Assembly (NCBI GenBank): GCA_030524205.1
Contig: JAUNGZ010000020.1
Location: 1-43,512, forward strand
Reading direction: 5' to 3'
Length of the DNA: 43,512 nucleotides
Source: Eubacteriales bacterium
GTDB taxonomy: Bacteria; Bacillota; Clostridia; Oscillospirales; Butyricicoccaceae
Positions 1-42,920 of the stretch are shown here, one piece after another. Made by a program: the position numbers and the translations under genes. Position 1 is the stretch's first letter. Every line of letters starts with the position of its first letter. The notes beneath the pieces are model-generated. The model worked only from the letters and a program-made list of their open reading frames with translations. It did no database searches and had not been told where the DNA came from.

Positions 1-309
1 GCGCCGTGTCGGCGCTGTCGTCCCCCGTCCTTCGTCCAACTCCGCGCCGTGTCGGCGCTGTCGTCCCCCGTCCCCGCGCCGCCGCGCGCATTCAAACAGA
101 AACCGGCCACGCCGGTTTCATAAAAAGGCCGAGCTTCGCCCGGTCTTTTTATCCAAAGCCGTCACCGCCCGAAAATCAAAATTTTCGGGCGGCGACGGCG
201 CAATAGCCTTCCCGGCGCACCGCCGGAAGGCGTCCCTCGATGGAAGCGCATAGCGCTTCCATCGAACGCCCGCAGGGCGCCCTTCGTTTGAAACCGTGGT
301 TTCAAACGA
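1..309 (+). repeat. Structured intergenic repeat, copy A
   Basis: Noncoding stretch made of successive hairpins. It opens with an exact 30-base direct repeat (1-30 and 44-73), each containing GCGCCGTGTCGGCGC, a short hairpin. Then come hairpins at 99-119 (AAACCGG/CCGGTTT), 120-152 (ATAAAAAG/CTTTTTAT), 158-199 (long stem with CAAA loop), 206-231 (GCCTTC/GAAGGC), 237-265 (TCGATGGAAGCGC/GCGCTTCCATCGA) and an extra terminal hairpin at 284-309 (TCGTTTGAAACC/GGTTTCAAACGA). The last one contains the cobT stop codon. The same order of modules and linkers (ATCCAAAG, GGCGCAATAGCC, GCGTCCCTCGAT) recurs in copies B and C with different but still paired stem sequences. Orientation is called + by analogy with B and C. 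Confidence 0.85.
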
Positions 310-16475: not shown

Positions 16476-16560
16476 GCCGGGACCCACTTCCCCTCATGAT
16501 GGGAAAAGGCCTTCCGCACACCGGCCGTCTCTCGCAGCCGTATGCGCTTCCGTCCGAAAA

Positions 16561-16755
16561 GGCAGGTATTCTGGCTCGGGCGTCATCGTCCGCTCCGCCG
16601 GTCTTCCCGGTTTGACCCAGTGACCATCGTTTGGCGGCGGACTCCTCCCTCACAGCGGCGGGACCGCAGGGGAATTTCACCCCTTTCCCTATTATCCTGC
16701 CGGAGAAATGGCAGGAACCCTTTCGTATCCGGCGGCACGGGGCCGTCGGAAGAAG
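16561..16755 (-). ncRNA. Cobalamin (B12) riboswitch
   Basis: Read on the minus strand, the aptamer shows the class hallmarks in order: GTGCCGCCGGA, the AATAGGGAAAGGGGTGAAATTC core with CCCCTGCGGTCCCGCCGCTGTGA (the B12 box region), then GTCACTGG, CCGGGAAGACCGG, and the closing GATGACGCCCGAGCCAGAATACCTGCC. It lies just upstream of cbiM, in front of the long cbi/hem operon, and is preceded by a good promoter. Binding of adenosylcobalamin would be expected to shut the operon off. Boundaries are accurate to about ten bases. Confidence 0.95.
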
Positions 16756-18642: not shown

Positions 18643-18718
18643 TGGTGGAAGTTAACGGGCTCGAACCGCTGACCCTCTGCTTGTAAGGCAGATGCTCTCC
18701 CAGCTGAGCTAAACTTCC
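18643..18718 (-). tRNA. tRNA-Val (anticodon TAC)
   Basis: Complete cloverleaf: acceptor GGAAGTT/AACTTCC, anticodon stem TCTGC/GCAGA around the loop CTTACAA, T-arm with GGTTCGAGC and an encoded CCA. Last gene of a three-tRNA transcript. Confidence 0.95.
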
Positions 18719-18721
18719 AAA

Positions 18722-18796
18722 TGGTGACCCGTGCGGGAATCGAACCCGCGTTACCGCCGTGAAAGGGCGGTGTCTTAACCGCTTGACCAACGGGCC
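18722..18796 (-). tRNA. tRNA-Glu (anticodon TTC)
   Basis: Complete cloverleaf: acceptor GGCCCGT/ACGGGTC with one G-U pair, anticodon stem CCGCC/GGCGG around CTTTCAC, T-arm GCGGGTTCGATTCCCGC, encoded CCA. Its charged form is the substrate of HemA, encoded at 10442-11635. Confidence 0.95.
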
Positions 18797-18804
18797 AAGG
18801 GAAA

Positions 18805-18881
18805 TGGTAGCGGTAATTGGACTTGAACCAATGACCTTCCGGGTATGAACCGGACGCTCTAGCCAACTAAGCTATACCGCC
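18805..18881 (-). tRNA. tRNA-Met (anticodon CAT, elongator type)
   Basis: Acceptor GGCGGTA/TACCGCT, anticodon stem TCCGG/CCGGA around TTCATAC, T-arm TTGGTTCAAGTCCAA, encoded CCA. The first pair is G-U and the anticodon stem lacks the three consecutive G-C pairs of the initiator. A lysidine-modified tRNA-Ile2 cannot be fully excluded. Confidence 0.9.
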
Positions 18882-19754: not shown

Positions 19755-19819
19755 GCCAATCCCCCTTTTTCCTCCACAGCACCGAGCCGCCGAAAAAACC
19801 CCGTGCCGCAGCACGCTTT

Positions 19820-19850
19820 AAATAGAAAATGGCGGCAAAGCCGCCATTTC
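19820..19850 (-). terminator. Rho-independent terminator upstream of the transglutaminase-like gene
   Basis: On the minus strand AAATGGCGGC-TTTG-CCGCCATTT followed by TCTATTT. It would end transcripts coming from 20033-20815 and from repeat copy E. Confidence 0.7.
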
Positions 19851-19900
19851 TCTCATTGAATTGCCGCGCGGCGGCGGAAAGCAGACAGAGGGCTGCGGGC

Positions 19901-20023
19901 TATTCAAACCGGCTTCAAGCGCACCCCAGCGCGGCTCCTCTCGCCGCTTTGCGGCAATTCGCCTGCTGCCCGTAGGGCGCGCGCAGAAGCCGGAATATTC
20001 GATTGAATCGTGATTTCAATCGA
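19901..20023 (+). repeat. Structured intergenic repeat, copy E (multi-branched variant)
   Basis: A closing stem CCGGCTTC (19909-19916)/GAAGCCGG (19986-19993) encloses three small hairpins: GCGC/GCGC, GCCGC-TTT-GCGGC and GCCC-GTA-GGGC. A terminal hairpin TCGATTGAA/TTCAATCGA follows at 19999-20023, 9 bases from the stop of the 20033 gene. It shares the terminal hairpin with copies A-D and F but has different inner parts, closest in layout to copy F. Confidence 0.7.
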
Positions 20024-20032
20024 GAGAATCGC

Positions 20033-20815
20033 TCACATCAGCTTAACGGTATAGTATACTGCCGTAATGAACAAATATGCCGCCGCGACGCCCATCGCCG
20101 CCAGCGTATACGCCGGCAGGAACGCCGTTGCCGCGACCAGCACGGTCATCAGCAGGGGCGTCACCGTCAGCATGGTATAGGCGTTGCGGCTGAACTGCGG
20201 GTCCATCGTCCGGCCGCGGAAGGTGATTTTACCCTTCCTGCCGCGCAGCGTCCACACGCAGGCAATCTGGACCACGGTCAGCACGGCCGCCGCAGCCAGC
20301 GCCGCATACGCCATCGAGCCGTAATTTGACGAGGCCAGCGCGCGGTGCGCCACCCACATTAGGCCGAGCGCCGCGCCCGAATCTACCGCGATCAGGAAAA
20401 ACTCCGGCGCGTACGAATGATACACCAAATAGTACACCGCCAGCACGGGCAGAACGACATACAGCACCTTGATGGGCTGCGCGCCGATGTAGTTGATCAC
20501 CGTCATGCACAGGACAAGCACGATGCTCGCGATCAGCACATTGCGGCCGCACAGGATGCGGCGAACCGCCCGCCGCTTGCCCGCGGCCTCGCGCGCCAGC
20601 AGATAAATGCCGGCCGCCGCGCCCACAATGCCGGCGCCCAGCAGCACCCTGACGCAGATAATGCCCATCCGCCACGTATTGCCGTAGTCCAGCAGCCGCT
20701 GAAGGATCATCAATACCAGCACGCCGAGCAGGCACACGCTGAACACCGTCAGCACCTTATTCGTCGTATATTCTTCTTCACTGATTGGCTTCTTGCTCAC
20801 ATTGCTTTTGGCCAA
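20033..20815 (-). CDS. Polytopic membrane protein of unknown function
   Basis: I do not recognise the family. The 260-residue protein starts at a TTG (20815) six bases after GGGAGTGG. A polar N terminus (MAKSNVSKKPISEEEYTTNK) precedes about seven hydrophobic helices, near residues 22-40, 52-75, 90-110, 114-130, 133-150, 158-178 and 208-255 (two). Positively charged loops (EAAGKRRAVRR, LRGRKGK) suggest cytoplasmic sides. No enzyme motif is visible. It follows rsmE by 20 bases, probably in one transcript with prmA and rsmE, and is followed by repeat copy E. Confidence 0.7.
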   Translation of the reverse strand: MAKSNVSKKPISEEEYTTNKVLTVFSVCLLGVLVLMILQRLLDYGNTWRMGIICVRVLLGAGIVGAAAGIYLLAREAAGKRRAVRRILCGRNVLIASIVLVLCMTVINYIGAQPIKVLYVVLPVLAVYYLVYHSYAPEFFLIAVDSGAALGLMWVAHRALASSNYGSMAYAALAAAAVLTVVQIACVWTLRGRKGKITFRGRTMDPQFSRNAYTMLTVTPLLMTVLVAATAFLPAYTLAAMGVAAAYLFITAVYYTVKLM

Positions 20816-21623: not shown

Positions 21624-22586
21624 TCATTTTCTCGCGACAAACGCGCTCCAATCGTCGCTGCTTTCGTGCGACGCTACGGACAGGCCGCTCGCCTCGAGCG
21701 CCGCGCGCACCTCGTCCGCCCGTTCGTTCAGGATGCCCGAGCAGATCAGCGTGCCGCCCGGCGCGAGCTTTGCGAAAAACATCGGCGCCATGCCGATGAT
21801 CACGTCGGCCACAATGTTGGCGACGATGATATCGTAGCCGTCCCCGATCTCCCGCGCGAGCGCGTCATTGCGCAGCGCGTCGCCGCACAGGCCGCGGCCG
21901 ATGGAGACGCGGTTTTTCTCCGCGTTTTCCCGCGCGGTCTTCAGGCAGTTTTCGTCGATGTCGACGACAGCCCGCACCTCCGCGCCCAGCATGGCCGCCG
22001 CGATCGCCAGAATGCCCGAGCCCGTGCCCATGTCGAGCAGCTTGTCCCCGGGCTTGACGCAGGCTTCGAGCGCAGCCATGCAGAGCTGCGTCGTATCGTG
22101 GCTGCCCGTGCCGAAGCTCGAGGCGGGGTCGATCTCCAAAATGCGCCGGCCGCCCGCGTCCTCCACGGTTTCCCACGAGGGCTTGATCAGAAAGGTCCTG
22201 CCGACCGGAAAGGGCTTGAAATACTGCTTCCAGCCCCATTCCCAGTCCTGCTGCCGGGTGACGCCCGTGTCAAAGCACAAGCGGCCCCATGCGTTTTCCG
22301 CGTCGCGCGCTTTCAGGTTTTCCAGCGCGCCGCGGATGCCGGCAAGCTGCGCAGCGCCCGCATCGTCGTCGGGCAGATAAATTTTCAGGCAGGTCTCCTG
22401 CGTGGTTTTTTCCCGCACGAGGCCTTCGTCCACATAGTCCCAGTATATCTCCGTATCCTTGAGAAATTCCTGAAAGTCGGCCGCGTCCTCGAGCACATAG
22501 CCCTCCACGCCGTTCTCCTCCAAAAGCGCCGCGACCGGCTCCACGCCGGCCGTCGTCGTGTAAATCGTCACTTCTTTCCAGTCCAA
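21624..22586 (-). CDS. prmA: Ribosomal protein L11 methyltransferase PrmA
   Basis: Methylates ribosomal protein L11 using SAM. The start at a TTG (22586) gives 320 residues and the conserved MDWKEVTIYTTTAGVEPVAALLEENG opening; an in-frame ATG at 22616 adds ten residues lying in the edge of repeat copy B and has no spaced Shine-Dalgarno site. The SAM motif LLDMGTGSGILAIAAAMLGA and the NxxxNV-like IIVANIVADVIIGMAP motif are intact, preceded by SFGTGSHDTTQLC. The purine-rich edge of copy B (GGGACGAGAG on the minus strand) seems to supply its ribosome binding site. Confidence 0.92.
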   Translation of the reverse strand: MDWKEVTIYTTTAGVEPVAALLEENGVEGYVLEDAADFQEFLKDTEIYWDYVDEGLVREKTTQETCLKIYLPDDDAGAAQLAGIRGALENLKARDAENAWGRLCFDTGVTRQQDWEWGWKQYFKPFPVGRTFLIKPSWETVEDAGGRRILEIDPASSFGTGSHDTTQLCMAALEACVKPGDKLLDMGTGSGILAIAAAMLGAEVRAVVDIDENCLKTARENAEKNRVSIGRGLCGDALRNDALAREIGDGYDIIVANIVADVIIGMAPMFFAKLAPGGTLICSGILNERADEVRAALEASGLSVASHESSDDWSAFVARK

Positions 22587-22591
22587 ACAGC

Positions 22592-22834
22592 TCTCGTCCC
22601 TTCGTCCCTCGTCCATCCCCGCGCCGTGTCGGCGCGACGTTCCCCGCGCCCGCAGGCGCCGTTCAAACAGAAACCGGCCACGCCGGTTTTATAAAAAGTG
22701 CGGGCTTCGCCCGTACTTTTTATCCAAAGGCGGCATTGTCCGAAAATCAAAATTTTCGGACAATGCCGGCGCAGCAGCCTTTCCGACGGAACGTCGGAAG
22801 GCGTCCCTCGATTGAAACTGTAGTTTCAATCGAC
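22592..22834 (+). repeat. Structured intergenic repeat, copy B
   Basis: Pyrimidine-rich leader (CGTCCCTTCGTCCCTCGTCC), hairpin GCGCCGTGTCGGCGC (22621-22635), then AAACCGG/CCGGTTT (22671-22689), ATAAAAAG/CTTTTTAT (22691-22722), GGCATTGTCCGAAAAT/ATTTTCGGACAATGCC with CAAA loop (22732-22767), GCCTTTCCGACG/CGTCGGAAGGC (22777-22802) and TCGATTGAAACT/AGTTTCAATCGA (22808-22833). A 28-base block (22662-22689) is identical to 92-119 in copy A. The stems at 22732 and 22777 differ in sequence from copy A yet stay paired. Confidence 0.88.
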
Positions 22835-22835
22835 A

Positions 22836-23876
22836 TTATAAACGAATCAGCCCGTATTTTTGTTCCAAATAATGCAAAACCTCTTCGGACTGCTCCCACG
22901 TGCCGTCATACAGCGCCAGACCGGGATACACCCGCAGCCCCTGCTCAAGCAGCTCGGCCGACTCCGCGCACAGGCAGACCGGCCGAGAGATCATATACCG
23001 GCACTCCTCCAGCGCGATTACATCGTCCTCCGTTTCGAGCACGAGCTTCAAAGCGCCCGCATCGTCCTCCGCTTCCAAGAGCGCCTCGCTCAGACGGTGG
23101 CCGCACTCGATCTCGTCCGAAATGTCGATCGTCGGGTCGATGAAATGCGCGTTTCTGCCGTCCGGCGCGAGGATGAAATCGTCGTGGTCGCGCGGCACGC
23201 GGCGGGACGCGGCGTGTCCGTCGATTGCCGCGAGCACCTCCGCCTCGCCGTCGGGCGCGCGCGGCAGGAAAATCTCCGTGTTGTACAGCGCGGTCTGCGC
23301 GCGCAGCCACGCGGCGGGAACCGATACGCCGATCGACAGCCGCGCGTAGGGTGCGGCTGCCTCGAGCGCCTCGGTCAGCGCCTCCGGTTCGCGCGCGGTC
23401 AAAATAACGGTCGACACGCCGACGCGCTGCAGCACGCCGACCGCCGCGCGGATATCCGTGCCGTCCTCCAAAAGGCCTTCGTCCCCCTCGACGGTCAGCT
23501 CGGCGATCACCGTCCGTCCGCACAGGTCGGTCAGCGCGAGCACCGCGGCGCGCAGCGCCGCGAACGAGGGCGCGCCGCGCAGGTAATAGAACGCCGCGCC
23601 GTCGTGCAGGCGGCCGCGGAACGCGGCCTTGCACTGCCCGATATAATGCATCGTCTGCGGCCGTTCGCAAAGCTCCTCGTCGGGCGCGGGCGGGCAGTCG
23701 AGCGGCAGGCCGACCGGCAGCGGCTCGAGCGCCTCCGCCCAAGCCGCACAGGCCGCCCCGTCGGGCGCAAGCGCGCCCGCAAAGCGCCCGGGCTGCTTTT
23801 GATACAGCGGCAGCGCGGCGGCGTTTGCCAGAATCAGCTGCGGTTTATCGCCTGTGTGACATAAAGGAATGTCCAA
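22836..23876 (-). CDS. Divergent methionine synthase (MetH)-like protein without zinc-site cysteines
   Basis: The 346-residue protein (TTG start, AGGAGG 10 bases upstream) reads like a shortened, altered MetH N-terminal half. GRFAGALAPDG (30-40), AELTVEGDEGLLEDGTDIRAAVGVLQRVGVSTVILTA (125-161) and ALEAAAPYARLSIGVSVPAAW resemble the homocysteine S-methyltransferase barrel. RPVCLCAESAELLEQGLRVYPGLALYDGT (298-326) and the YLEQKYGLIRL end resemble the pterin-binding barrel. The N-terminal DGAMGT-like strand and the GxNC and GGCCG zinc motifs of active enzymes are not found. It may have lost catalysis or bind something else. The link to MetH is from memory of the family, not a search; moderate confidence. 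Confidence 0.5.
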   Translation of the reverse strand: MDIPLCHTGDKPQLILANAAALPLYQKQPGRFAGALAPDGAACAAWAEALEPLPVGLPLDCPPAPDEELCERPQTMHYIGQCKAAFRGRLHDGAAFYYLRGAPSFAALRAAVLALTDLCGRTVIAELTVEGDEGLLEDGTDIRAAVGVLQRVGVSTVILTAREPEALTEALEAAAPYARLSIGVSVPAAWLRAQTALYNTEIFLPRAPDGEAEVLAAIDGHAASRRVPRDHDDFILAPDGRNAHFIDPTIDISDEIECGHRLSEALLEAEDDAGALKLVLETEDDVIALEECRYMISRPVCLCAESAELLEQGLRVYPGLALYDGTWEQSEEVLHYLEQKYGLIRL

Positions 23877-23907: not shown

Positions 23908-25392
23908 TTATTTTTTCTTCCAGCCGCCGTCTGCCAGCGGGATATACTGCTGCGGCTTATCCGCCGCGAGCTTACAGATTTCAAGCGCGGTCTGCAGCTG
24001 CTCGTCGAGCAGATAGGTCTGCCCGTCGAGCGTCCGCATCGCGTTTTCGAGCGCCTCCAGCATATCGGGGGAGGCATACAGGTCGGGCGGCATCTCGTAG
24101 CTCTGCCGGAAGGCCGCGACCGCGTCGAGCGTGTCGCCGTCGAAGGAACGGCGCGCCTCGTCGATCAGGCCGAGCAGCGCGAGGCGCTCCGTCATGGCGT
24201 ACACATCGTCCGAGCTGTCGCCGAAGCGCAGCGTCTTGGACGCGTCGAGCGGCGTAAGATTGTTCACATGAACCGTCACCTGCCGGTTTTCGATCTGCAG
24301 GTCGGGCGTCAGGCCGACGCCCTCGTACACGCCGGTTTTGGGCAGCTCAAGCTCGAGCGTGGTGATCACCAGCTTGTCGCCGTTGACCAGATCGAGATGG
24401 AACTGGCCCTGCCCCTTGCCGTAGGTTTTGGAGCCGAGCAGCGTGGCCGTGCCCGTGTCCCTCAGGCTGCCCGCGAGCAGCTCGGCTGCCGAAGCGGTGC
24501 CGCCGTCGACCAGCACGACGATCTTGTTCAGCGGCAGCGCGCCGCCCGTCGAATAGGTCTGCTCGAGGCCGCCCATGTCCGCTCGCCAGCGCACGCCGGC
24601 GAGCAGCGTGTCCTTCTCGGTCACCATAGTGTCGGCCATTTTAAGCGCAACGTCGATCACGCCGCCGCCGTTTCCGCGCAGGTCAAGCACGACCGCGCGC
24701 GTGTTCTTTTCGTCCAGCCCTTCCCAGATCTCGGAAAAGGCCGTCCAGTCGTTCTCCGAGCCCATCGCGCTGACCTTGATGTACTCGACGCCGTCCGCCA
24801 GCGTTTTGTTCGACACATACACCTGATTGACCTTGCGGCGCACGCAGGTGACGGTCACGTCCCGCCCCTGCCGGCGCACAGTCAGCGTGACGCTGGCGCC
24901 CTCCTCGCCGCGCAGCCGTTCGGCCACCTCGGCGTTGGTAAAGCCGGTCGCGTCCTCGCCGCCGATTTTGACGATCAGATCGCCCACCTGCAAGCCGGCC
25001 TCCTCAGCCGCCGAATAGCGCATGACCTCGCTGATCTGCACGCCGCTGGCCGTCTGCTCCAGACCGACGCCCACGCCCACAAAGCCCTCGAGCGTGGAGA
25101 AGCCCTGCGAATACTCCTCGCTCGACAGATACATCGAATGCGTGTCGAGCAGGGAAAGGATGTCGTTGATCACGTCATACATCTCGTCGGGATGCTTTTG
25201 CAGGTATTTGTTGATATAGTTCTGCAAAACGTAGGGGTCGTCCTCGGCCTTGAGGCCGAACGCGTCGATCAGCGCCCATACGCCGTCGAACCAAGTCTCG
25301 CTCTCGCCGTCCTTGGTGACCGCGCCCGCGGGCACGGTCAAGATGATGGCGGCCAGCGCGAGCGCCGTCAGTCTTTTCGCAATTTTTTTCAT
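23908..25392 (-). CDS. Carboxyl-terminal processing protease (S41 family, CtpA-like) with PDZ and peptidoglycan-binding-like domains
   Basis: Secreted or anchored serine protease of 494 residues. A signal peptide (1-24, ending PAGA) is followed by an N-terminal helical part, a PDZ domain (about 104-185, with GVGVGLEQTASGVQISEVM), and the S41 core. Ser301 in DGGTASAAELLAGSLR and Lys326 in GSKTYGKGQGQ form the expected Ser-Lys dyad. The C terminus (about 390-455, LRFGDSSDDVYAMTERLALLGLID) resembles a peptidoglycan-binding repeat, as in Firmicutes CtpA/CtpB. It lies downstream of repeat copy C and 31 bases before the MetH-like gene. Confidence 0.9.
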   Translation of the reverse strand: MKKIAKRLTALALAAIILTVPAGAVTKDGESETWFDGVWALIDAFGLKAEDDPYVLQNYINKYLQKHPDEMYDVINDILSLLDTHSMYLSSEEYSQGFSTLEGFVGVGVGLEQTASGVQISEVMRYSAAEEAGLQVGDLIVKIGGEDATGFTNAEVAERLRGEEGASVTLTVRRQGRDVTVTCVRRKVNQVYVSNKTLADGVEYIKVSAMGSENDWTAFSEIWEGLDEKNTRAVVLDLRGNGGGVIDVALKMADTMVTEKDTLLAGVRWRADMGGLEQTYSTGGALPLNKIVVLVDGGTASAAELLAGSLRDTGTATLLGSKTYGKGQGQFHLDLVNGDKLVITTLELELPKTGVYEGVGLTPDLQIENRQVTVHVNNLTPLDASKTLRFGDSSDDVYAMTERLALLGLIDEARRSFDGDTLDAVAAFRQSYEMPPDLYASPDMLEALENAMRTLDGQTYLLDEQLQTALEICKLAADKPQQYIPLADGGWKKK

Positions 25393-25419: not shown

Positions 25420-25609
25420 GCGCCGTCAGGCGCAATACAATCGGATTTTGCCCCGCAAAATCCATCAAAAGCGCGAGCTCCGCCCGTGCTATTGATACAA
25501 AGGCCGAATAGGCGAAAAATCGAAATTTTTCGTCTGTTCGGGCGCAATAGCCCTTGCGGGCAAGGCCCGCCAAGGGCGTCCCTCGATTGAACCTGTACGG
25601 TTCAATCGA
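25420..25609 (+). repeat. Structured intergenic repeat, copy C
   Basis: Same module order as copies A and B: GCGCC-GTCA-GGCGC (25420-25433), GGATTTTGC/GCAAAATCC (25443-25463), ATCAAAAGC/GCTATTGAT (25464-25496), a long stem with CGAAAAAT/ATTTTTCG at its tip (25503-25543), GCCCTTGCGGGC/GCCCGCCAAGGGC (25550-25577) and TCGATTGAACC/GGTTCAATCGA (25583-25609). Linkers ATACAAAG, GGCGCAATAGCC and GCGTCCCTCGATTGAA match A and B although the stems have changed, so the pairing rather than the stem sequence is kept. Confidence 0.87.
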
Positions 25610-25610
25610 A

Positions 25611-27308
25611 TCACATTTGGCTTGGCGCTTCCACTCCGATCAGCCGCAGCGTGTTGCCGATCGCCTGCTTGGCGGCCATGCACAGCGTCAGGCGGGCGTC
25701 GCGCACGCGCGCGTCGTCGTCCTTGATGCGGCAGGCGTTGTAGAAGTGGTGGAACTGCTGCGCGAGCGCCACCGCGTACTTGTTCAGCCGCGACGGGTCG
25801 CGGCTCTGCGCCGCCTGCGCGATTTCCTCGGGCAGCAGCGCGATCTGCTTGATCAGCGCGCGCTCGTCCGCCCCCGTGAGCACGGAGAGGTCGGTTTTCG
25901 CGGGCTCGGGCAGCACAAAGCCGCTCTCCGCCGCGTTTTTCAGCACCGAGCAGATGCGCGCGTGCGCATACTGCACGTAGTACAGCGGGTTGTCCGAATC
26001 CTGCTTGACCGCGAGGTCAAGATCGAACTCCATCTGCGTCTCCGCCGCGCGCGAGTTGAAGAAAAAGCGCGCCGCGTCCACGGGGATCTCGTCCAGCAGG
26101 TCGGTTAAGGTAAGGCTCTTGCCCGTGCGCTTGGACATGCGGACGACCTCGCCGCCCTGCATCATGCGCACCAGCTGCATCAAAACGATCTCGAGACGGT
26201 GCGTCCCGTCCAGCCCCAGCGCGTCCAGCGCGCATTGCAGGCGCTTTACGTGGCCGTGATGGTCCGCGCCCCAGATGTTGATGACGCGGTCGAAGCCGCG
26301 CTTTTCAAACTTGTTGCGGTGATAGGCGATATCGGCCGCAAAGTACGTGTAAAAGCCGTTGCCGCGACGCAGCACATCGTCCTTGTCACAGCCGAAATCG
26401 GTGCTTTTCAGCCAGAGCGCGCCGTCCTCGGTCTCATAGGTCGCGCCCTTTTGGGTCAGCAGGTCCATGGTCTCCTTGACGTACCCGCTGTTGTGCAGCT
26501 CGCTCTCGCGGAACCACACGTCGTAGTCGATCTTATAGCGCCCCAGATCGCGCTCCATGCGCGCGATGTTGGTCGGCAGGCCGTAGCCCTCGATGATGGC
26601 AAAGCGCTCCTCGGCGGTCTTGTCCAGCAGGCTGCCGCCGTACTGCTCGACCAGATCGTGCGCGAGCGTCTTGATGTCGTCTCCCTGATACCACGAGGGG
26701 TCGAATTCGACCGCGTCCTCGCCGCGCACCTCTTGGATATAGCGCCCCTCGACCGAGTGCGCGAATTTATCCACCTGATTGCCCGCGTCGTTGATATAAA
26801 ACTCGCGGGTGACCTCGTTGCCCGACCACGCCAGCGTTTCGGCCAGACAGTCGCCCAGCACGCCGCCGCGCGCGTTGCCCATGTGCATCGGCCCGGTCGG
26901 GTTGGCGGAAACAAACTCGACCATCACCTTTTCCGGTTTCCGGGTCTGCGTGCGGCCGTAGCTTTCGCCCATTTCGGACACGTTGCGCACGGCTTTTTCG
27001 TACCAGCTCTGACCGAGCGTAAAGTTGAGAAAGCCCGGCCCGGCGATGCCGACCGTGTCGAAGCAGCTGCCCGTCAGGTCGAGATGGTTTACGATCTCCT
27101 CCGCGATTTTGCGGGGCGCAAGACGCAGCGGCTTTGCGCACTGCATGGCAAAGGTGGACGCCCAGTCGCCGTTGGACGCGTCCTTCGGGGTTTCGACCGC
27201 GACGGGCGGAATATCGCCCGCAGGCAGCGCGCCGGCCTCGACCGCTTTGTGATAGGCGGCTTCGACGACTCTGGTCGCCTCGGCGCGCGCGAATTCGTAT
27301 GCGTTCAT
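25611..27308 (-). CDS. argS: Arginyl-tRNA synthetase
   Basis: Charges tRNA-Arg. The 565 residues contain the class I signature as HMGN at 142-145 (FVSANPTGPMHMGNARGGVLGD), the KMSKS equivalent RMSKRTGKSLTLTDLLDE, the N-terminal additional domain and a DALR anticodon-binding C terminus (VQYAHARICSVLKNA onward). The ATG at 27308 is 22 bases after the DUF1934 gene, so the two are probably one transcript. That pairing (DUF1934/YwiB next to argS) is frequent in Firmicutes. The stop is immediately followed by the terminal hairpin of repeat copy C. Confidence 0.96.
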   Translation of the reverse strand: MNAYEFARAEATRVVEAAYHKAVEAGALPAGDIPPVAVETPKDASNGDWASTFAMQCAKPLRLAPRKIAEEIVNHLDLTGSCFDTVGIAGPGFLNFTLGQSWYEKAVRNVSEMGESYGRTQTRKPEKVMVEFVSANPTGPMHMGNARGGVLGDCLAETLAWSGNEVTREFYINDAGNQVDKFAHSVEGRYIQEVRGEDAVEFDPSWYQGDDIKTLAHDLVEQYGGSLLDKTAEERFAIIEGYGLPTNIARMERDLGRYKIDYDVWFRESELHNSGYVKETMDLLTQKGATYETEDGALWLKSTDFGCDKDDVLRRGNGFYTYFAADIAYHRNKFEKRGFDRVINIWGADHHGHVKRLQCALDALGLDGTHRLEIVLMQLVRMMQGGEVVRMSKRTGKSLTLTDLLDEIPVDAARFFFNSRAAETQMEFDLDLAVKQDSDNPLYYVQYAHARICSVLKNAAESGFVLPEPAKTDLSVLTGADERALIKQIALLPEEIAQAAQSRDPSRLNKYAVALAQQFHHFYNACRIKDDDARVRDARLTLCMAAKQAIGNTLRLIGVEAPSQM

Positions 27309-27787: not shown

Positions 27788-28050
27788 TTTCGATTGAAAA
27801 CACGTTTTCAATCGAGATTTTGCTGATTTCGGTGCGCGCTTAACGCGCACACCGAAATCAGTTTGAATCAAAAACACGGGCAGAGCTCGCGTTTTTGATG
27901 GGGCCGTAGCCCTCTATCCTTGTTCCGCCGCCGTGCGGCGACAAAACGAGAGCAATGGCAGGGTCATTTCCTTTTATAATGCGCGCTGCGGCGCGGGGAC
28001 GGGGGACGGTCGCGCCGACGCGGCGCGGGGTTGGACAAGGGAACGAAGGA
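27788..28050 (-). repeat. Structured intergenic repeat, copy D (inverted, with an extra module)
   Basis: Reading on the minus strand: leader TCCTTCGTTCCCTTGTCCAA (28031-28050), GCGCCGCGTCGGCGC (28012-28026), GCGCCGCAGCGCGC (27981-27994), a module GCTCTCG...CGCCGCACGGCG (27930-27958), ATCAAAAAC/GTTTTTGAT (27867-27899), CTGATTTCGGTG/CACCGAAATCAG (27823-27861) and TCGATTGAAAAC/GTTTTCAATCGA (27790-27815). The leader agrees closely with copy A, and the extra module is shared with copy G. Unlike the others, its terminal hairpin sits at the start, not the end, of the flanking gene. Confidence 0.8.
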
Positions 28051-32613: not shown

Positions 32614-32780
32614 GGCTGTCGAAAAACGGTGTTTTTCGCACCGCCTCTCGGTCACGCCCCACGCACGCCCGTCAAATCGCCGTGCGGCGATAACGCGAGA
32701 GCAAAGCACGCACTTTTGCGGGAAATTCGGCAAGCTGCGTTTCCCTATTTTACGCGCGCTGCGGCGCGCGGGCTTTTTCG
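32614..32780 (-). repeat. Structured intergenic repeat, copy G (partial, inverted)
   Basis: A terminal-type hairpin TGTCGAAAAAC/GTTTTTCGCA (32617-32640) lies right after the stop of the 32203 gene. Then come the module shared with copy D (32679-32706: GCCGTGCGGCGATAACGCGA and AGCAAAGC) and CGCGCTGCGGCGCG (32755-32768). Its terminal stem has a different sequence from the TCGATTGAA type. It lacks the stretch with ATAAAAAG-like arms. It reads away from the gene on the plus strand, so it is minus by the orientation used for the others. Confidence 0.65.
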
Positions 32781-32788
32781 GCCAGCTG

Positions 32789-32826
32789 AAGCGGCGGACA
32801 AAATTTTGTCCGCCGCTTTTTATTTT
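32789..32826 (+). terminator. Strong rho-independent terminator after the padR-pspC region
   Basis: Near-perfect hairpin AAGCGGCGGACAAA/TTTGTCCGCCGCTT followed by TTTATTTTT. It separates the stress module from the flavodoxin gene. Confidence 0.9.
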
Positions 32827-40748: not shown

Positions 40749-40766
40749 CTCTACCGAAAACTTCCC

Positions 40767-40954
40767 GCGCCGCAGCGCGCTTTTGAAAAGAAGATCGAAA
40801 GCGGAGCGAAGCGCAGACTCGCTTTTTATCCAAACCGATGACAAGTGTGGTCCAGACCACCTTCTCTTGTCCCTGCAGGGCAATTTACCTTGCACCCGCA
40901 GGGTGCGCGCAGGCATCGGCAAAAAACTTCGATTGAACCTGTAGTTTCAATCGA
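40767..40954 (+). repeat. Structured intergenic repeat, copy F (multi-branched variant)
   Basis: GCGCCGCAGCGCGC (40767-40780), a stem AAAGCGGAG/CTCGCTTT near 40798-40826, the linker TTTTTATCCAAA, then a closing stem CCGATG (40835-40840)/CATCGG (40914-40919) enclosing ACAAG/CTTGT with GTGGTC-CA-GACCAC, CCCTGCAGGG and TGCACCC/GGGTGC. The terminal hairpin TCGATTGAACC/GTTTCAATCGA (40929-40954) carries the stop codon of the LtaS-like gene. Leader, linker and terminal hairpin match copies A-D; inner hairpins are copy-specific. Confidence 0.8.
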
Positions 40955-42884
40955 GATTTTCATATTTCATGCGGTAATAAATGCGGTCCTTGTATTCGGC
41001 GACGGCATCTGCGGATTCCGCGGGCGTCTGCGCGTGGTACGCGCCGTCCGCGTCGACCGCCGTGCCGCGCTGCACGACGGGCAGCTCCCGCCGCAGCGTG
41101 TTGACGAAGCGGAAAAACGGGTCGCTTTCGCCGCAGCCGACCGCGTCGAGCACGGCCGCGCCGAGAAAGCTCGCGCTCAGCTTGCCGTTCTCCGGCAGGC
41201 CGAGGCGCGCGGCGAGCGTGCCGAAATCGAGCGCCTCGGCGCCCGCTTCGTTCGCCCAGAGCAGGAACGGCGGCGCATATGCGTCCAGCCAGTCCTCCCG
41301 CGTGCGGTCGTCGGTCATTTCCATGCCGAGCGCGCGGTAGCACAGGTAATCCTCGCCCATGCTGGGCAGATGGTCACCGAAAAACACGAGCAGCACCGGC
41401 TCGTCCCGCTTTGCAAAATAATCGGTCATCGCGCCGAGCATGTCGTCCGCGTCGCGCAGGCCGTAAAGGTATTCGGTCAGCATGATCCGCGCCTCGTCGG
41501 GCAGCTCGCCCTTGACGCTGATCGGCGTCAGATCGACCGCCGGGCCGTACTTCTGCTCGGTATAGGCCATGTGGTTCTGTATGGTGGTCACATAGGTGAA
41601 CTGCGGCTGGCCGTTTGCCGCGTGCCGCTCGAAATTATCGGTCATATAGTCGAGGAGCGCCGCGTCCGTCACATAACCGCCCTTGTAGGCCGCGCCCTCA
41701 AAGGCGTCCTCGAACACAATCTCCTGCGCGCCCAGCCATTTATAGATGTTCTGCCGGTTGTAAAACCACGCTTTACCCGGGTGGATAAACTGCGTCTGCC
41801 AGCCGTTTTGAACGGCCACGCGGAACACCGAATCGACGTTTTTATGCAGCACGCGGAAGGAGGACACGCCCGCGTCGGACAGCAGGGCGGTCTGCATGCC
41901 GGTCAGCACGTCGAACTCGGTATTGGCCGTGCCGCCGCCGTAATTGGGCACGATCAAATGCCCCGAAATCGCGTTTTCCGACCGCTGCAGGGCGTGGTAA
42001 TTTTTCAGCGGGTCGGTTTCCGCCGTCCATGTGAAATCGTCGTCGTCGGACAGGTCGCAGAACGCCTCGCTCATTACAAAAATCACGTTGACCGGTTTTG
42101 GGGCCGCCGGGACGGTCTCGGTTGCGGCGATGCGCGCCTCGGTTTCGGTTTTGGAAAAGCCCTCGGGCTTTTGCAGGTTGTTCTGCGTCACGTTGCGCAG
42201 AAAGCTGAAGTGGAAGCCCGCCTGCTCGTACACCGTGGTCATATTGAAACGGTTGGTGACGGGAAAGGACGCGAACACGTCCGCCGAGGCGTACACCGTA
42301 TACGTCAGCAGCACCAGCAGCCCGGCGCAGCCAAGGCAGCCGCCCGCCCGCGCCGCCGCGCGAAAAGCGCCGCGCAGCCCGGTGCGGCGCGTGCGGAACA
42401 GCATCGCACACACCACGAGCGCCAGCAGCACAATAACGCACAGCAGCACAAGCGGCGTATCCACATGCAGATCATAGCTGCCCGCCGCCTGCACGGCCTC
42501 GCGCGCCATCGAAAGATCCTGCGGGACGAGCGGATCGTCGCGCGCGTCGATCTTGAGACGGTTGGCAAAGTTCAGCAGGCCGCACACCGCAAGCGTCGCC
42601 GCCGCCGCCGAAAACACGTTGCCGAAGGCGCTGAGCAGCGCGAGCAGCACGAGCAGCACCGGCAGCCAGTTGAGCAGGCCGAGCAGCGGCGTGGTAAAGA
42701 ACGTCGACGGAATGACGGGCGCGGTTTTCAGGCACAAAAACCAGACGCCGAGCGACAGCAGCACCGCGAGCGGCAGGTTCCAGCCCGCGGCATACCGCAC
42801 AAGGCCGTGTTTCTTCTCTTTTGCGCCGGGACGGCGGTGTTCCGCCTGATGCGCGCCCGGCCGCGCTTCATGAAAGTGATGCAT
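40947..42884 (-). CDS. LtaS-like sulfatase-family membrane enzyme (phosphoglycerol transferase type)
   Basis: A 645-residue protein of the lipoteichoic-acid-synthase/alkaline phosphatase superfamily. About five transmembrane helices lie in residues 35-205, then an extracellular catalytic domain. Glu273 in NVIFVMSEAFCD, the nucleophile Thr319 in VPNYGGGTANTEFDVLTG, HPGKAWFYNRQNIYKWLGAQEIVFEDAF, and FFGDHLPSMGEDY give the metal site. It probably polymerises or transfers glycerol phosphate to a wall glycolipid. The start at 42884 leaves almost no leader after its promoter; a TTG at 42920 is an alternative. Its stop lies in repeat copy F. Confidence 0.85.
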   Translation of the reverse strand: MHHFHEARPGAHQAEHRRPGAKEKKHGLVRYAAGWNLPLAVLLSLGVWFLCLKTAPVIPSTFFTTPLLGLLNWLPVLLVLLALLSAFGNVFSAAAATLAVCGLLNFANRLKIDARDDPLVPQDLSMAREAVQAAGSYDLHVDTPLVLLCVIVLLALVVCAMLFRTRRTGLRGAFRAAARAGGCLGCAGLLVLLTYTVYASADVFASFPVTNRFNMTTVYEQAGFHFSFLRNVTQNNLQKPEGFSKTETEARIAATETVPAAPKPVNVIFVMSEAFCDLSDDDDFTWTAETDPLKNYHALQRSENAISGHLIVPNYGGGTANTEFDVLTGMQTALLSDAGVSSFRVLHKNVDSVFRVAVQNGWQTQFIHPGKAWFYNRQNIYKWLGAQEIVFEDAFEGAAYKGGYVTDAALLDYMTDNFERHAANGQPQFTYVTTIQNHMAYTEQKYGPAVDLTPISVKGELPDEARIMLTEYLYGLRDADDMLGAMTDYFAKRDEPVLLVFFGDHLPSMGEDYLCYRALGMEMTDDRTREDWLDAYAPPFLLWANEAGAEALDFGTLAARLGLPENGKLSASFLGAAVLDAVGCGESDPFFRFVNTLRRELPVVQRGTAVDADGAYHAQTPAESADAVAEYKDRIYYRMKYENLD

Positions 42885-42890
42885 AGTACA

Positions 42891-42920
42891 GTTATACACC
42901 CGTTTGCCGCCTTCTGGCAA
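42891..42920 (-). promoter_or_regulatory. Candidate promoter for the LtaS-like gene
   Basis: TTGCCA (42915-42920), 18-base spacer, TATAAC (42891-42896) on the minus strand. Initiation about seven bases downstream would fall on or near the ATG at 42884. Confidence 0.5.

Follow-up and report, generated by a model that had tools for sequence, protein, structure and literature searches.

The spacers of this Eubacteriales genome hold a real, genus-restricted family of hairpin arrays. Most of these arrays begin at a stop codon and run in the direction of the gene that they follow; their stems covary, they are in general better conserved than synonymous sites, and at orthologous positions they are present in some species and absent in others. 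Our preferred reading, at about even odds, is that these genus-restricted composite palindromic repeats form the structured 3' ends of transcription units.

The window, meaning the whole stretch of 43,512 nucleotides that was analysed, contains three copies (A, B and C) in which hairpins H5-H4-H3-H2-H1 follow one another in identical order with conserved linkers, as the original prediction had it. Read on the gene strand, which is the minus strand for all three, the order is stop codon, H5, GGGACG, H4, CTATTGC, H3, TTTGTAT, H2, H1 and H0, with a G-rich tail 3' of H0 in some copies that can be repeated. The tail unit is about 43 nt long, has the form GCGCCG..CGGCGC with GGGACGAGGGACGA-like linkers, and stands in tandem after H0 in some arrays (window 1-73 and 22603-22661, and several copies elsewhere in the genome). 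Copy A (1-309, minus strand) is a full type I array with an extra H5-like hairpin (284-309) and adjoins the stop codon of a CobT-like (DBI_PRT) gene at 302-1360. Copy B (22603-22834, minus), also a full type I array, lies between a gene at 22836-23876 and a PrmA-like gene at 21624-22616, both on the minus strand. Its H5 (22808-22833) abuts the stop codon and is separated from H4 (22777-22802) by the GGGAC linker; H3 (22731-22768) has a long stem with a AATTTTGATT-type centre, H2 (22691-22723) consists of an A-tract, a GC stem and a T-tract, with a core that is the sole terminator-like call in the spacer, H1 (22670-22689) has the form GAAACCGGC..GCCGGTTTC, and H0 (22646-22659) is a short GC hairpin, all on the minus strand. 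Copy C (25420-25609, minus), again of type I, is placed between argS (25611-27308, minus) and an S41 peptidase gene (23908-25392, minus). The covariance model R1 matched A at 117-267, B at 22688-22835 and C at 25461-25611, all on the minus strand, and the folds of these three copies were strong on both strands (z from -5.8 to -11.8).

Copies D to G had been proposed as related variants. R1 confirmed D (27788-27902, plus strand, 65.8 bits) and weakly E (40783-40956, minus, 21.6 bits), and two further arrays were recognised by eye. Copy D is a variant array antisense to its flanking genes (27788-28045, plus; right end set by eye), and copy E a divergent variant (40756-40955, minus) that ends at the stop codon of a sulfatase-like gene (40947-42920, minus). 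The first of the arrays found by eye (19800-20028, minus) combines the same H5 head and H1/H0 tail with a type IV-like centre and adjoins the stop of the gene at 20033-20815 (minus); the second (32640-32790, plus) is partial, with H2/H1/H0-like hairpins, and neither was reported by R1 at E≤1. Lower-scoring copies elsewhere in the genome retain H5 and the H2-H1-H0 tail around other centres, classed by eye as types II, III and IV, and since the centres differ by array type the family does not have one fixed layout. The type III centre, AAAAGTTCCGAC..GCGAAACTTTT, contains a conserved C.A mismatch (for example G000:C14:56705-56849, G000 being the source genome) and is common to copies at unrelated genes and to the argS spacers of six other species. 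A search of the window against Rfam at the gathering score gave four matches, a cobalamin riboswitch (16544-16737, minus) and three tRNA genes (18646-18881, minus), none of them on the arrays.

A covariance-model search of the host and its relatives, which had been proposed as a check, extended the family far beyond the copies in the window and across the whole genus. In the host genome, blastn with copy B gave at least 47 matches (40 of 92 first-look candidates scored) and R1 at E≤0.01 at least 124 (150 of 1356 first-look candidates scored). From the latter 115 were carried forward, and removal of overlaps left 101 places; most of the nine matches dropped scored below 25.8 bits, copy E among them, and at least one was stronger and overlapped a better match. 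The hundreds of copies per genome once extrapolated were not reached: the count is at least 101 non-overlapping places, all of 26.3 bits or more, in the 2.21 Mb of an 82%-complete assembly, a lower bound because 150 of 1356 candidates were scored and because R1, built for type I, does not pick up the array at 19800. The best identity between copies was 86% and the median 76% (86 copies with a partner aligned over at least 90 nt); with none near-identical, no recent burst is visible. R1 matches occurred in all 25 genomes of the genus and in none of 62 genomes from 14 other genera of the family (best 35 candidates per genome scored). In a wider set of 60 genomes the 25 with matches were the 25 of the genus, and the 35 genomes from 35 other genera had none among the best 51 candidates of each. 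Both wide searches used stricter filters than the search of the host genome, and as R1 is a type I model the range of the other types may be wider. A pattern search found no match in plasmids, one in viral contigs (L253), which by eye is a chance match in coding-like DNA, and one in genome contigs, in Erwinia oleae (L070), where by a rough estimate about two chance matches are expected.

The arrays had been said to fill the spacers; they do form an intergenic family, but their anchoring at stop codons in the orientation of the gene had been overlooked. With genes called by a simple codon-usage caller trained on the eight window genes with Pfam hits, the position analysis covered 96 of the 101 places, five without flanking DNA being omitted. 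At 67 of the 96 the array starts between -20 and +15 nt from a same-strand stop codon and runs in the direction of the gene, and 54 of those 67 start between -1 and +5. Six more start 34-54 nt from the stop; in several of these, copy A included, the gap is occupied by a short GGGACGCC-type hairpin together with an additional H5-like one. By neighbour class, 45 of the 96 places lie between a same-strand gene end and a same-strand start, 27 between convergent genes, 11 are antisense and 13 belong to other classes, so that within co-directional spacers 45 sense copies stand against 11 antisense ones (binomial p 5e-6). An upstream neighbour on the opposite strand, found at 15 of the 96 places, counts against the 3'-end reading. 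In other species the array stands at the stop in 23 of 30 loci, all 30 being strong type I matches; two of the remainder are far from a called stop, and in five the neighbour at 35-36 nt is on the opposite strand, a single orthologous site accounting for four of those five. Convergent genes can carry back-to-back arrays, as at C33:2105 with C33:2419 and at C28:50105 with C28:50319.

The pairing of the stems was assessed in copies from the host genome, 19 of which were extracted, one (L028) being left out before alignment and the other 18 aligned (A1) and folded. In these 18, 94.4% of cells were paired, against a mean of 71.9% when the arms were shuffled, and 38 of 48 pairs showed two-sided change, against 22.3 when shuffled. 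The covariation score was 0.593, against 0.174 for shuffled arms and at most 0.164 when the partner was slid by 1-3 columns; the fold was predicted from this very alignment, which gives the unslid version an advantage, but the gap is very large. Compensatory change in the repeated copies, as first noticed, is thus far above both controls, and the claim of a family withstood the check for an excess of covariation. Among eight orthologs at a single locus, behind a glutamate-dehydrogenase-like gene (alignment A2), 24 of 68 pairs changed on both sides (9.3 shuffled, at most 7 slid) and 96.6% of cells were paired (87.7% shuffled), with a structure hand-drawn on one species and a helix 4 (88% paired) poorly aligned in some rows. 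Compensation is therefore not confined to paralogs but is also found between species at a single site. The letters of the hairpins vary between copies while their pairing is kept, which suggests that the cell benefits from the folded 3' end.

Selection on the mRNA fold alone would tolerate G.U pairs and not A.C, which makes the comparison of the two its test. Among 4104 pairs in 318 stems of the host genome there were 53 G.T, 86 A.C and 18 other mismatches; places containing N were skipped in this count and in those below for H5-H3 and H2. Confined to about H5-H3, the counts of G.U against A.C were 8 to 17 in copies of at least 100 bits, 8 to 28 in copies below 100 bits and 14 to 15 in other species. 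Selection on the RNA only was unsupported, as sense-strand G.U pairs do not outnumber A.C mismatches; the comparison leaves selection on sense RNA alone unproven and is not decisive. Positions conserved in H2 and in the centres of type III arrays account for part of the A.C excess. In 28 stems classed as H2 (copies of at least 60 bits) there were 26 G.T/T.G and 21 A.C/C.A mismatches, mostly at the same two places, and the other stems were nearly perfect. In the dehydrogenase-locus alignment, by contrast, helix 3 has several G.U pairs and no broken pair. These counts bear on a further possibility, that template switching between the arms at replication keeps the stems perfect without selection on the fold. 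Mutation of this kind would fit the scarcity of mismatches (157 of 4104 pairs), the fact that 139 of the 157 are G.T or A.C, kinds one transition away, with no preference for G.U, and the outer H3 stems, which are near random between copies yet paired. It leaves unexplained the conservation of linkers 1 and 2, a change slower than that of third codon positions and the placement at stop codons, and we consider it decidedly improbable.

Mean pairwise identity in the linkers was 0.93, 0.81 and 0.74 from first to third, and in the stems 0.72 for H5, 0.64 for H4, 0.75 for H2, 0.77 for inner H3 and 0.39 for outer H3. Linkers 1 and 2 thereby exceed every stem; the third is no better conserved than the H5 and H2 stems, a point against the 3'-end reading. 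The contrast between linkers and outer H3, together with the gene-strand orientation, would also suit a 3' UTR regulon, in which the unpaired boxes GGGACG, CTATTGC and TTTGTAT would be recognised by a protein or small RNA in roughly a hundred mRNAs, the stems only keeping them apart. Such a regulon appears highly improbable to us, given that other array types keep H5 and H2 with different centres (by eye) and that the same housekeeping gene has an array in some species only.

In 57 of 61 ortholog pairs the arrays were more alike than third positions of conserved codons. The pairs belong to six groups, one of which (X1, 6 of the 61 pairs) was added since its arrays had looked very alike. The four exceptions are the synthetase pair G000/G011 and the rubrerythrin pairs G000/G023, G015/G019 and G015/G023, where the arrays look unrelated. 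Array identity exceeded that of the whole coding stretch in 25 of the 61. Since spacers that are unrelated still score 0.74 with this aligner, pairs with few gaps make the strongest cases, and in those with at most 8 gap columns the array was ahead of third positions in 34 of 34. The array was also ahead in 15 of 16 comparisons with spacers that lack one in the same two species. These controls came from two genes, with G004, G007, G010, G013 and G024 set aside because they may be remnants, and on the other side the diverged arrays were excluded (all those of the synthetase, rubrerythrin of G000 and G015 and argS of G011), so that this comparison favours the array. Orthologous arrays of two species (L264 and L265) are 99.3% identical over 152 nt, in 2.8-kb surroundings that are 88.7% identical. 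The original prediction had offered selection on the fold or a mechanism that copies hairpins. Selection is supported by the compensation among eight species, by the 57 of 61 pairs and by the two linkers above every stem; hairpin copying keeps a small share of the probability, A.C mismatches being at least as common as G.U.

The spacers behind five genes, followed through the species of the genus with array states judged by eye, showed arrays in some species and not in others. Behind argS, 11 of 23 species have an array (two cut by contig ends; three types), 2 a partial one and 10 none, and behind a class II aminoacyl-tRNA synthetase gene 3 of 24 have a full array, 4 remnants and 17 none. The glutamate-dehydrogenase-like gene has a full type I array at the stop in 8 of 20 species, an array of another type further on in 2, remnants or fragments in 4 and none in 6. 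In the two species with the more distant array (G010 and G024; L202 and L201) it is type IV-like and stands beyond the native terminator, not at the stop. Rubrerythrin has a full array in 4 of 22 species, and the phosphoglucomutase/phosphomannomutase gene an array in 1 of 21; its absence from the other 20 indicates that the array is dispensable there. The decayed copies among orthologous spacers count against the 3'-end reading. Species lacking an array mostly have a plain terminator at the synthetase, dehydrogenase, phosphoglucomutase and rubrerythrin genes; array-free argS spacers are short and have no obvious terminator.

Patchy occupancy of this kind (8/20, 4/22, 1/21 and 3/24 at the dehydrogenase, rubrerythrin, phosphoglucomutase and synthetase genes) could also be produced by REP- or MITE-like palindromes, selfish and non-autonomous, that insert at the 3' ends of genes without any role for the host, their stem covariation reflecting needs of their own mobility such as a hairpin-binding enzyme. 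The eleven antisense copies would be in keeping with this, and the conserved H2 mismatches could mark a strand. We hold it to be a possibility on the unlikely side. No match to the Y1 transposase (PF01797) was found in the 82%-complete host genome, and only 4 of the 25 genus genomes had one above cut-off, which leaves REP/RAYT mobility unsupported; the two ends of the array, H5 and H0, are by eye not inverted copies of each other, as looked for in a MITE, whose other mark, a target-site duplication, would be obscured by the divergence between species with filled and empty sites; and both the lack of near-identical copies in the genome and the conservation of orthologous arrays above third codon positions argue against it.

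The reading as structured 3' ends is consistent with the terminator-like character of some hairpins. A consensus scan of two spacers called H2 of copies B and C, in which a T-run follows a GC-rich stem, and H1 of copy C on the gene strand, where shuffled sequence is expected to give 0.5 calls per region, and made no call on the opposite strand of these spacers. H3 was also considered as the gene's own terminator, with only a partial result. In 3 of 17 arrays (synthetase of G000 and G011, dehydrogenase of G008) it resembles another species' terminator at the same locus above all 2000 draws from other loci; in the other 14 it does not. A few entries in the terminator set were themselves remnants or type II hairpins, and for G011 the matching terminator comes from G004, where the spacer is possibly what is left of an array.

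The original prediction knew no named repeat with this layout, and the arrays fit neither of the tagged REP definitions applied; a known kind with similar placement does exist. We read the arrays as relatives in kind of the REP/BIME repeats, kept as structured 3' ends with terminator-like hairpins, and find no support for counting them as REPs. The linkers GGGACG, CTATTGC and TTTGTAT, read in alignment A1, show no unpaired GTAG end as in GTAG-tagged REPs. CGTC-tagged REPs, in the excerpted text of PMC3733652, have a terminal CGTC, a stem of 8-9 bp opening with A/T pairs, a loop of 4-5 nt and a CCA-like tail. GACG, the complement of CGTC, does border H4, but H4 opens with G-C pairs and mostly has longer stems. 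REPs are single palindromes of 20-40 bp with GTAG or CGTC tags, whereas the arrays are five to six different hairpins in fixed order. What the two have in common, going by the same excerpts, is that they are dispersed intergenic palindromes in many copies near the 3' ends of upstream genes: REPs lie there in co-directional and convergent spacers, most convergent ones under 20 bp from the 3' end of the upstream gene in the two species plotted, with others showing the same pattern (PMC3733652), and 67 of 96 arrays lie within -20 to +15 nt of a same-strand stop. The study on ribosome-stalling E. coli REPs near stop codons is reportedly that of Liang and colleagues from 2015. An earlier study cited in PMC12306157 proposed that 260 of 496 E. 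coli REPs, at most 15 nt from the stop, affect translation by stalling ribosomes, and a newer count in that paper places 446 of the 4,072 REPs predicted in E. coli no more than 15 nt from a stop codon, by which measure tight anchoring is stronger in the present arrays.

Other known systems share single traits with the arrays. BOX elements of Streptococcus pneumoniae are likewise modular short intergenic repeats with ordered sub-units; in PMC3049150 they are boxA-boxB(n)-boxC units taken for parasitic, the passages that describe them mention no anchoring at stop codons, and it is by description that they are set apart. Intrinsic terminators resemble H2, a GC stem and then a T-run, and some H3 resemble terminators of the same locus, but in the arrays such hairpins are part of a larger repeated unit of several hairpins joined by conserved linkers. 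Among stem-loop repeat families in 40 bacterial genomes two thirds share a predicted structure (excerpts of PMC2267715); these too are folding intergenic repeat families, compared here by description, and 'compensat-' is absent from the main text of that paper. No work on the array family was found in the open literature, at the level of titles and abstract openings.

For arrays as structured 3' ends we infer the following course of events. H2, and H1 with it, would end transcription and shield the 3' end of the mRNA. H5, mostly about 5 nt or less from the stop, would sit where E. coli REPs reportedly stall the terminating ribosome. The stems would be free to change provided that both arms change. 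Copies may spread or be replaced at gene ends, lineage by lineage, and those once established would then be held by purifying selection. A bolder version, unlikely in our judgement, is that the genus has rebuilt many gene 3' ends from a shared kit of covarying hairpins starting at the stop, a common 3' end code in which the conserved unpaired boxes and the ribosome-proximal hairpin jointly influence termination and translation at about a hundred genes and the lifetime of their mRNAs.

In a genome such as this one, much intergenic sequence can be a single family of structured elements, which sequence-only repeat finding picks up as short fragments. Whether REP-like repeats are junk, mobile DNA or regulators of 3' ends is still argued. 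Because copies can be traced at the same gene across species of this genus, alongside natural array-free versions, the question of parasite or function becomes directly testable.
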